Origin: a virus | Direction: 5' to 3' (one strand) | IMG/VR virus record: IMGVR_UViG_3300042894_001300 | Coordinates: 1-35,460 of that record | DNA length: 35,460 bases | Part shown: one piece after another, positions 2,440 to 35,460 of the stretch | Layout of the letters: the number at the start of each line of letters is the position of its first letter | Position numbering within the stretch: the stretch's first letter is position 1 | Notes under the pieces: generated by a model | What the model was told of the DNA's origin: nothing | Seen by the model: only the letters and a program-made list of their open reading frames with translations | Database searches by the model: none | Made by a program: the position numbers and the translations under genes

Positions 2440-5637
<3,198 letters not shown>

Positions 5638-29887: not shown

Positions 29888-30229
29888 TCAGTTCTTGTAT
29901 GCCTTCAATATCAAAACTTGTTTGTCGTCTTTGAACGCTATACCATTTAGGCCATCCAGAATACTCTTGACATAGTTATCAACATCTGCCCTGAGGCTTG
30001 ATTGTTCGTCAATGTCGGAGATTGTGACCTCAGCACCTTTGGTTGTTAGCTTGACAACGACACACACTGAGCCCTCAAAGAGCGGTCCTTCAGCCTCTTT
30101 ATAGCTATTGCCAACATGTTTTTCATATTCTCTGGTGGTTGAATCTGTGTAAACGAATCCACGTGCAGATACACGCGGCCTGCCCTTCGGGCGCGGCCTA
30201 CCAGGAATACTGAAACTAAAAGATTTCAC
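29888..30229 (-). CDS. rusA: RusA-family Holliday-junction resolvase
   Basis: The protein is 113 residues from a GTG at 30229 that overlaps the upstream stop (GTGA). It starts FSIPGRPRPKGRPRV, the usual RusA opening. It has the catalytic set D82-x-D84 and K88 (RADVDNYVKSILDGLNG) and D101/D102 (FKDDKQV). RusA-like dimers cut four-way DNA junctions; phages use them to clear branched DNA before packaging. This is the only recombination or DNA-processing enzyme identified here apart from the terminase and the HNH proteins. It is smaller than, but comparable to, the roughly 120-residue family members. Confidence 0.9.
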   Translation of the reverse strand: MKSFSFSIPGRPRPKGRPRVSARGFVYTDSTTREYEKHVGNSYKEAEGPLFEGSVCVVVKLTTKGAEVTISDIDEQSSLRADVDNYVKSILDGLNGIAFKDDKQVLILKAYKN

Positions 30230-33648: not shown

Positions 33649-33984
33649 TTACCACCTACCTTGACGAGAAGCATCATCAGCCCAAGGTTCACTGTCACCA
33701 GAAGGCGCGGCAAAAGATTCCTTGTTAGCTAGGGCAGAGTATTGAGCATGAGCTCCAACTTGATTACCTACCACGTCATCAATGAGGTCATAGAGAGCCA
33801 TAGTGTTCCGAGAAACCCAATCTTGATACTGCTGGTCTTCCAATGCCACCAGTTCTGTGTTGACAAGGTCAACTACACGCTGAATAGCGTCTTCATCTAT
33901 GAGTCCAGAGGCTTTGAGTACAAACCTCAGTGCTGTTTCTTGTTCTGACATTGATTGCTCCAATCCGCTATTCGCGTTGCTCAT
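33649..33984 (-). CDS. Hypothetical acidic helical protein
   Basis: The protein is 111 residues from ATG 33984 (GGAACGGAA precedes it). The longer open frame upstream would add a spurious hydrophobic stretch made from the origin-like DNA. Helices are predicted by eye at ETALRFVLKASGLIDEDA, QRVVDLVNTELVALEDQQYQ and MALYDLIDDVVGNQVGA. The C-terminus is polar (GDSEPWADDASRQGRW). No family is recognised. It is the first gene of the leftward operon, so likely early, and it stops just before the HNH endonuclease. Confidence 0.72.
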   Translation of the reverse strand: MSNANSGLEQSMSEQETALRFVLKASGLIDEDAIQRVVDLVNTELVALEDQQYQDWVSRNTMALYDLIDDVVGNQVGAHAQYSALANKESFAAPSGDSEPWADDASRQGRW

Positions 33985-34058: not shown

Positions 34059-34118
34059 TGTGTACACAAAAAGCCAAAGATGTACACAACCAGACAAACC
34101 AAACAAACATGTATACAA
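34059..34118. promoter_or_regulatory. Three palindromic TGT(A/G)(C/T)ACA sites (operator or iteron candidates)
   Basis: TGTGTACACA (34059-34068, a perfect palindrome), TGTACACAA (34081-34089) and TGTATACAA (34110-34118) share a TGTRYACA core and are spaced 20 and 29 bases apart. A further TGTATACAA lies at 34842-34850 and a TGTACA in the left divergent region at 1568-1573. The sites could bind a dimeric repressor of the leftward operon whose first gene starts at 33984. Confidence 0.45.
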
Positions 34119-34159
34119 GTCCAATACAAGTCAAAAACAGCACAAACACTGACAAAACA

Positions 34160-34191
34160 TGTGGAAAACCCTGTGGATAACCAGTGGAAAA
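34160..34191. promoter_or_regulatory. DnaA-box cluster (putative replication origin)
   Basis: The central site TGTGGATAA (34172-34180) is the exact complement of the DnaA-box consensus TTATCCACA. TGTGGAAAA (34160-34168) and AGTGGAAAA (34183-34191) are one- and two-mismatch variants in the same orientation. Starts are spaced 12 and 11 bases, about one helical turn. The sites lie in AT-rich, gene-free DNA. Host DnaA binding here could open the phage origin. No replication gene was found in the phage itself. Confidence 0.65.
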
Positions 34192-34242
34192 CAATACGAG
34201 AAAGAAAACTGTGAACTAAGGGCATAACTCATCTGCCCGTTT

Positions 34243-34284
34243 TGCTTGCAATAGTTAGCAGTCTGCTTGCAATAGTTAGCGCTG
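34243..34284. repeat. Tandem 21-base repeat beside the DnaA-box cluster
   Basis: TGCTTGCAATAGTTAGC occurs at 34243-34259 and again at 34264-34280, with a 4-base spacer giving a 21-base period (two helical turns). It begins 52 bases after the last DnaA-like box. Iteron-type spacing and place suggest a binding site for an initiator or regulator. Confidence 0.7.
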
Positions 34285-34472
34285 CGTGTTTTGTTTACTC
34301 TTTTATTTTGTTTATTTGGGTTGTTCGGCACCTTTAGGTGAGCGAAGCAGCCGGTGATTGCTGCTGTAAAAAGCGCGGAAAAGTAGCAAAGTATTCGAGC
34401 AGCTATTCGAGCATTCGATGCGGCGGCAAAAACATCAACTTTTTACAACATTCCACGTCAGCTGCCCGGCAA

Positions 34473-34522
34473 GAACGCAGCAAATATATGAACGTAGTGA
34501 ATAGGTATGAGCGCAGCAAATA
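34473..34522. repeat. Triplicated 14-base motif
   Basis: GAACGCAGCAAATA (34473-34486), GAACGTAGTGAATA (34490-34503) and GAGCGCAGCAAATA (34509-34522) follow one another with 17- and 19-base periods. They lie directly beside the terminator end of the candidate small RNA. Function is unknown. Confidence 0.6.
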
Positions 34523-34657
34523 GAAAAGCCCCAGATGCAGGAATGGCTACAAACCTACATCCAGGGCTTCTCCGACAGGACGAGCGAGGAGCCTGTCTAT
34601 TGGGTGTAGCGATTCGCTGACCACCATGCACGACACCAATGCCGTAGTACGCCGTGC
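34515..34657 (-). ncRNA. Candidate structured small RNA, about 140 nt
   Basis: On the minus strand a promoter-like TTAGTT-N17-TATGAT (the -10 is ATCATA at 34664-34669 on plus) would start a transcript near 34657. The transcript folds into a 5' stem TGCACG/CGTGCA (34653-34658 with 34627-34632), a middle stem GACAGG/CCTGTC (34574-34579 with 34592-34597) and a long terminal stem. The last pairs AAGCCC 34526-34531 with GGGCTT 34564-34569, with further GATG/CATC and AGG/CCT pairing inside. On the minus strand it is followed by TTTTCTATTT, like an intrinsic terminator. No known RNA family is recognised. Confidence 0.5.
34520..34569 (-). terminator. Probable intrinsic terminator of the candidate small RNA
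   Basis: The imperfect hairpin AAGCCC..GATG..AGG / CCT..CATC..GGGCTT has symmetrical internal loops. Read on the minus strand it ends directly in TTTTCTATTT (complement of 34518-34529). No protein gene lies upstream on that strand, so the terminator argues for a short non-coding transcript. Confidence 0.55.
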
Positions 34658-34944
34658 ACGCATATCATAACATACAAACATGGATGAACTAATCCGTCCT
34701 TGCGTGGTAGAAGACAAGCAGCCTTGCTGTTGTGATGATGATGATGTCAGACCAGATGCCAGTGCAGCCAGTCACAGTCACAGGTACAGATACCTCATGC
34801 ACAAGGGAGGGGTACACCCACCCCCCCACCGTACCCATTTGTGTATACAAATAAGGCTAGGGAGCTTTGAACTTTAAAAATACTTTTTGTGCTATTGATT
34901 TCTGTTAGCTTTGTTGACATTCACTAGTTTCTATGCGGTTCTAT

Positions 34945-34956
34945 TACAATTGTGTT
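34945..34956 (+). promoter_or_regulatory. -10-like box for leaderless whiB
   Basis: TACAAT (34945-34950) differs from TATAAT at one base and ends six bases before the ATG at 34957, so transcription could start at the A of the start codon. No ribosome site precedes the ATG. Leaderless messages are frequent in actinobacteria. A perfect TTGACA at 34914-34919 is 25 bases upstream, too far for a standard -35 with this box. Confidence 0.45.
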
Positions 34957-35319
34957 ATGACATGGATGGACTTGGCGGCGTGTAAAGGGAAAACGAATTT
35001 GATGTTCCCTAAGTTTCATAACGATAAGTCTTATACTGGTGTGGCAAGGCAGATTTGTAGTGCGTGTCCAGTGAAGAAAGAATGTCTGGATTATGCGTTG
35101 GAGTTTCCGATGACGGAGCTTCAGGGTGTTTGGGCTGGGTTGACGAATGGTCAGTTGGCTCGTGAGCAAAGAAGGCGTGGTTTGAAAGCGACAAGGCCAA
35201 CGATTCAGGAGATGTTGGTTGTTCGACGTAATGGCACTACAGCGTATGTTGAGCCGAAAGAGTTAGTTGATGCTCCGGTTAAGCGTGGTCGTGGTAGGCC
35301 GAGAAAGAACTTCGGTTAA
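34957..35319 (+). CDS. whiB: WhiB-family Fe-S transcription factor with AT-hook
   Basis: The protein is 120 residues from ATG 34957 (ATG 34933 is an alternative, 8 residues longer). The four Cys that hold a [4Fe-4S] cluster are C9, C34, C37 and C43 (DLAACKG, QICSACPVKKECLDYAL). They are followed by the GVWAGLT turn that replaces the usual GVWGG, and an Arg-rich helix. The C-terminus, KRGRGRPRKNFG, is an AT-hook. In host WhiB7 a similar hook grips AT-rich DNA next to the promoter while the Fe-S domain binds sigma region 4. Phage WhiB proteins (for example TM4) block host division regulators. Here it may rewire host transcription. It is the only rightward gene in this arm. Confidence 0.92.
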   Translation: MTWMDLAACKGKTNLMFPKFHNDKSYTGVARQICSACPVKKECLDYALEFPMTELQGVWAGLTNGQLAREQRRRGLKATRPTIQEMLVVRRNGTTAYVEPKELVDAPVKRGRGRPRKNFG

Positions 35320-35460
35320 ATTTAACTGGTTTGTTTCTCTGGTGTTGTTATGGGGCTCATGGCCGCCCCGCTCGCTTCGCGAGCTCCTAGGCCTAGGTCG
35401 TTTGGCGGCCTTTGCTTGTTTCAGTCTTGGTGTTCCCGCCAAGCCGACCGTCCTTTAAAA
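35276..35460. repeat. Right copy of terminal near-identical direct repeat
   Basis: This matches bases 1-185 at an offset of 35,275, with four A-to-G differences (35277, 35298, 35301, 35333). It covers the end of whiB and 141 non-coding bases. No other gene is present after the whiB stop at 35319. Confidence 0.93.
35361..35410. repeat. T-shaped nested inverted repeat, right copy
   Basis: This is identical to the left copy at 86-135, with outer stem GGCCGCC (35361-35367) / GGCGGCC (35404-35410), hairpin GCTCGC-TTC-GCGAGC and the 12-bp palindrome. It lies 41 bases after the complete whiB gene. It may act as that gene's transcription terminator or mark a genome end. Confidence 0.8.

Follow-up and report, generated by a model that had tools for sequence, protein, structure and literature searches.

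Results

The locus and its genes

We analysed a stretch of viral DNA of 35,460 nt, IMG/VR virus record IMGVR_UViG_3300042894_001300, referred to below as the window, and within it the segment at 34,059–34,284. On its left lies a leftward operon extending from 33,984 down to 29,106, the first gene of which (33649–33984, minus strand) encodes a protein of about 111 aa of unknown function, and on its right lies a rightward whiB-like gene (34933–35319, plus strand), WhiB being a marker of an actinobacterial host (PMC6802176, PMC10202952). A search of WhiB-bearing genome contigs for a finer host call returned two distant matches only, and the host is given here as an actinobacterium. The gene content further includes a terminase, a P22-like portal, a capsid protein with Mx8 among its nearest named relatives, a RusA-type resolvase, a glycosyltransferase and a sigma-70-like protein. 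The record, though classified as linear, has ends (1–185 and 35278–35460) that overlap by 183 bp with 3 mismatches and, because of this overlap, the genome is essentially complete as a circular map of ~35.3 kb. The phage is a complete podovirus-type actinophage of ~35 kb. Rfam and tRNA searches of the window gave no matches. The protein encoded at 538–1125 has a C-terminal stretch (ATPKQMNLMRKYKMN...) in common with a small gene near the small terminase gene in relatives.

A DnaA-box array in non-coding DNA

Three DnaA boxes in one orientation were found in non-coding DNA upstream of the leftward operon. Box 1 is TTTTCCACA on the minus strand (TGTGGAAAA on the plus strand; 34160–34168), with one mismatch to TTATCCACA; box 2 is an exact TTATCCACA on the same strand (TGTGGATAA on the plus strand; 34172–34180); and box 3 is TTTTCCACT, again on the minus strand (AGTGGAAAA on the plus strand; 34183–34191), with two mismatches. 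Their starts are 12 and 11 bp apart, just as the original prediction, made from the letters of the window, had described an exact box with two near-boxes. Only two matches to TTWTNCACA occur in the whole window, and these are boxes 1 and 2, the array at 34160–34191 being the window's sole DnaA-box cluster. The same-strand cluster score around the exact box was 6. It never exceeded 4 when the non-coding sequence of the locality was dinucleotide-shuffled 2,000 times, nor in 200 shuffles of the whole window. The array exceeds chance and is non-random, and it is probably bound by host DnaA. Exact copies of TTATCCACA in G011, G012 and G017 were set aside, as they stand among structural genes at a near-constant distance from the capsid gene.

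Conserved elements around the array

The array is accompanied by TGTRYACA palindromes at 34059–34068 (TGTGTACACA; 34059/34061), 34081–34088 (TGTACACA) and 34110–34117 (TGTATACA). These three had been predicted and are real; a further site missing from that prediction, a second TGTATACA palindrome at 34842–34849, adjoins a conserved element, GGCTAGGGAGC (34855–34865, plus strand), on the whiB side. Five of the window's eight TGTRYACA matches fall within ~0.8 kb, while two control palindromes each occurred twice, elsewhere. The sites are likewise concentrated in the control region of the related phage G423, and similar sites recur in relatives' control regions; they look like regulatory-type sites. 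A core element, AAGGGCATAACT (34218–34229), is exact in relatives including G423, G422 and G013, and the whiB-side element is conserved in relatives as GGSTAGGGAGC; the two are separated by 395–396 bp in the relatives measured versus 637 bp in the window.

The 21-base tandem repeat of the original prediction is also real; its assignment to an origin was not supported, as the repeat consists of two copies of a conserved regulatory-type palindrome. Two exact copies of TGCTTGCAATAGTTAGC, at 34243 and 34264, form the repeat, and TGCTTGCAATAGTTAGC is the longest exact block common to the window and the related locus L245 in this region. Within these copies lie two palindromic operators, GCTTGCAATAGTTAGC at 34244–34259 and a second copy, 21 bp from the first, at 34265–34280, and the same tandem pair with 21-bp spacing is present in L265/L267. 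The operator pattern GCTWRC-N4-GYWAGC gave 13 matches in 2.16 Mb of DNA from the sampled relatives (duplicate loci included), all in the control region, and its reversed control gave none in the same DNA. G013 carries a degraded copy in the same place, and the palindrome is absent from the low-GC (37–43%) members of the clade.

A search of actinobacterial genomes placed this palindrome also at promoters of an XRE/HTH gene. The sequence CTTGCAATAGTTAGC is present as a single copy in 17 of the 397 genomes (control, 0), and in 11 of these 17 it is directly upstream of one XRE/HTH regulator gene, which starts a few tens of bp further on; some of the remaining sites precede genes that by eye gave the impression of being HbhA-like. 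The two 17-bp direct repeats of the phage are a palindromic site common to host XRE promoters, and no Rep gene whose product could bind them was found. The host operator, that of the protein MASLNVGNLGEYLREQRR..., which may be comparable to Rv0474, has the identical palindrome GCTTGCAATAGTTAGC, often with a TTGCAAGC half-site nearby; the phage differs in carrying a 21-bp tandem pair before its operon and in having no annotated XRE gene. No tandem pair was found in 160 host genomes, and the tandem form may therefore be phage-specific. In viral contigs, 48 stretches carry the operator palindrome, a good part of them being one coding family. The extended palindrome GCTTGCAAWAGTTAGC (34243–34280; L245:1838; L265:3345–3381; L388–L404) is common to phages and XRE/HTH promoters, and no paper on the operator sequence was found in the literature searched; it appears to be a host operator, so far undescribed, that phages have borrowed.

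Skew, DNA stability and promoters

The original prediction had proposed a host-DnaA-dependent origin and named GC skew as a check. The skew minimum of the circularised genome lies at 34.8 kb, which is where gene direction switches, and skew at fourfold sites shows no replication pattern; skew therefore gives the origin no independent support and was rejected as evidence, since it tracks gene direction. The description of the locus as AT-rich and non-coding was correct as to the latter and weak as to the former. The least stable 40-bp stretch nearby (34286–34325), a weak candidate unwinding element by stability calculation, ranks only within the top 0.6%, stretches of greater length do not stand out, and no outstanding melting element was found near the boxes. 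As an oriC, a set of three boxes lacking a clear unwinding element would be minimal. A promoter scan of the region found no sigma-70-type promoter. Actinobacterial promoters are often atypical.

RNA structure on the whiB side

Leftward RNA from 34480–34680 folds better than its shuffles (z −3.27) and contains a 20-bp hairpin followed by a U-rich run (34523–34572, minus strand), which is terminator- or leader-like in a leftward transcript, while plus-strand folding of 240–560 and 34300–34680 was no better than shuffles. In relatives, the non-coding interval from AAGGGCATAACT to GGGTAGGGAGC has a constant length of 395–396 bp (L296:3862–4258, L265:3416–3812, L263:897–1293), and its leftward-read structure is intact in both haplotypes, including a few compensatory changes. 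Covariation in this interval was equalled by 51 of 500 shuffles (plus-strand fold) and is weak support for the structure because there are only three distinct sequences. The window structure is not homologous to that of the relatives by alignment. A C-rich run lies next to the whiB-side element, so that a leftward transcript there would be G-rich. Separately, the mostly non-coding DNA at 240–560, between whiB and the gene at 538, beats shuffles on the minus strand (z −2.5), and part of it resembles L263 around 1770–1880 by eye.

No recognisable replication genes in the window and its clade

Neither Pfam nor PHROGs searches found a polymerase, primase, helicase or initiator in the window, or a Rep initiator of the iteron plasmid type, which bears out the observation that no such gene is recognisable in the phage. 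Predicted structures of the proteins at 30226 and 538 were of low confidence (mean pLDDT 56 and 64) and gave no sign of an initiator. The absence is not an effect of a fragmented record, since the genome is essentially complete, and it extends to the clade, whose phages are about 33–38 kb in size and which was assembled by gathering relatives by capsid and by small terminase. In six-frame family searches, an AEP primase and a DnaB-type helicase were each found in 0 of 15 records of the window's clade, a count for which completeness is known for several records and which includes the unchecked G421 (47.8 kb), versus 5 of 5 sister-clade records; DNA polymerase A was in no sampled record of either clade. 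The sister-clade phages (G428, G429, G430, G432 and G433) have related terminase genes (small subunit 43–47% identity in the group) and, except for G428, an exact DnaA box upstream of the small terminase gene. No replication protein was seen among the sampled early proteins of four relatives, for which the 25 families with the most matches were covered, out of 38 and 42, and weak single matches may be hidden. In both clades several records have ends that overlap by 123–135 bp and so close on themselves, and fragmentation does not account for the genes missing from the clade either. With no recognisable replication proteins in a complete genome or its clade, replication must lean on the host.

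The array occupies the operator slot of relatives

Apart from the window, no clade member has a comparable DnaA array between the glycosyltransferase and small terminase genes. None was found in L245/G419, G423, G422 or G013, nearest relatives that also have no replication genes and of which L245 is the sole locus of the set with a detectable WhiB gene, and the comparison that the original prediction had itself proposed thus went against it. In the sister clade, an exact DnaA box lies about 1.0–1.5 kb upstream of the small terminase gene at most loci of sufficient reach; the block that holds it is conserved between close relatives, and its position is non-coding at the loci examined. The related locus L311 packs four boxes into 0.13 kb in this position, beside AT-rich DNA; L299, L300 and L309 have no such box. 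A role for DnaA boxes may be old, the array in the window being its own. L245 also carries, at 3700–3745 and upstream of its small terminase gene, four iteron-like copies of GGTTAAC at about 11-bp spacing.

Operators stand immediately left of the conserved AAGGGCATAACT in L263, L265, G423 and G013, and in L267 the distance from the operators to the start codon of the leftward operon is about 173 bp. In the window, by both alignment and distance, this slot is filled by the DnaA array, and the operator pair lies on the other side of AAGGGCATAACT. This placement is our main ground for interpreting the array as a component of a control region. As at DnaA-regulated promoters, the boxes are in a control region upstream of an operon, here 176 bp before the leftward start codon.

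DnaA boxes in other phages, hosts and plasmids

At least 119 stretches of viral contigs contain tandem boxes of the form TGTGGAWAACCNTGTGGAWAAC, the reversed pattern giving no match, and 82 of the 134 places in the TGTGGAWAACCNTGTGGAWAAC loci listed are outside any open frame of 100 aa. Tandem DnaA boxes are a recurrent phage feature, which lowers the novelty of the array and keeps the origin reading alive. A RusA-linked viral set (L129, L131, L134, L139, L140, L152, L165, L202, L204, L205 and L213) carries such arrays mostly outside long open frames; these are different phages from that of the window, with several arrays of 4–5 boxes, close to the RusA gene. In 397 actinobacterial genomes the box-pair pattern had one match (L244:1501–1521), not at oriC but before an nrdR-like gene, named from its sequence by eye, which indicates that DnaA-box pairs also occur at promoters.

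P1 oriR and RK2 oriV are plasmid or phage origins that use host DnaA. The window resembles these and oriC in its tandem 9-mers, which share one orientation and recur at about one helical turn, with a locally AT-rich patch and short repeats alongside. It differs from them in that it has three boxes only and lacks both a cognate Rep gene and a clear unwinding element, that a neighbouring repeat matches the operator of a host regulator, and that the array is not conserved in relatives. Known actinobacterial oriCs carry many more DnaA boxes.

Discussion

We propose that 34,059–34,284 would be the core of a control region flanked by the leftward operon and the rightward whiB side, made of sites for host factors, namely a tandem XRE-type operator, TGTRYACA palindromes and an added three-box array. 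Host DnaA would bind this array, and its binding would mainly tune leftward (early) expression to the replication status of the host, with a possible further part in starting phage replication. The operator, the TGTRYACA sites and the core element are conserved in relatives and the array sits in the operator slot, and a control function fits this anatomy better than an origin does. The region gave no sigma-70-type promoter, however; a genome without an initiator must start replication somewhere, and the array is its only DnaA-box cluster; and an origin role would likewise account for the tandem boxes widespread in viral contigs. We consider the chances of a control region acting mainly on leftward expression to be about evenly balanced.

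That the three boxes are where host DnaA loads the helicase of the host, whose replisome would then replicate the phage as it would a minichromosome or plasmid, is a serious possibility, although we think it rather doubtful. What stands of the original prediction is a significant, non-random array in non-coding DNA of a phage, and a clade, without recognisable replication proteins, to which the exact box upstream of the small terminase gene in the sister clade, the four boxes of L311 and the strong enrichment of tandem boxes in viral contigs can be added. The rest of its case is not supported, as the boxes are missing from the closest relatives of the phage, for which the replication problem is the same, only three are present and two of these are imperfect, the adjacent repeats are regulatory-type sites, and neither skew nor melting lends support. 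An initiator-free origin, at which a structured leftward transcript primes host polymerase in the ColE1 manner, would suit relatives that lack replication genes and keep a constant-length interval with leftward structure, as well as the folding of the window RNA and the G-rich transcript expected by the whiB-side element; we judge it improbable, given that the sequences are few, covariation is weak, the window structure has no alignable counterpart and a leader, attenuator or terminator would fit such a structure just as well. Very unlikely is a DnaA sink, in which the boxes titrate host DnaA and hold back host initiation during infection: multi-copy phage DNA with a non-coding box cluster could bind much DnaA, but three boxes per ~35 kb is little, and placement in the operator slot would go unexplained. 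A chance cluster without function, which the lack of conservation in close relatives might suggest, is opposed by the shuffle test and the phased, same-orientation spacing, and seems to us slightly less probable still.

A broader possibility, one that we would put forward as a long shot, is that the clade initiates DNA synthesis at a control region with nothing in it but sites for host factors and a structured leftward RNA, and that lineages have exchanged the initiating factor, with a host XRE-type regulator site in relatives and a DnaA array here.

Returning to the control region that we favour, its common palindrome suggests that the window phage, like its nearest relatives, is tied to a regulator of the host, and provides a lead on a regulon for which the literature searched held no paper. 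More durable is the finding that recognisable replication genes are missing across the clade. An initiator or a helicase loader, at the least, is usually encoded by tailed phages of this size, and a clade of ~33–38 kb without detectable replication genes, beside sisters that bear a primase and a helicase, turns replication carried out entirely by the host into a testable question.
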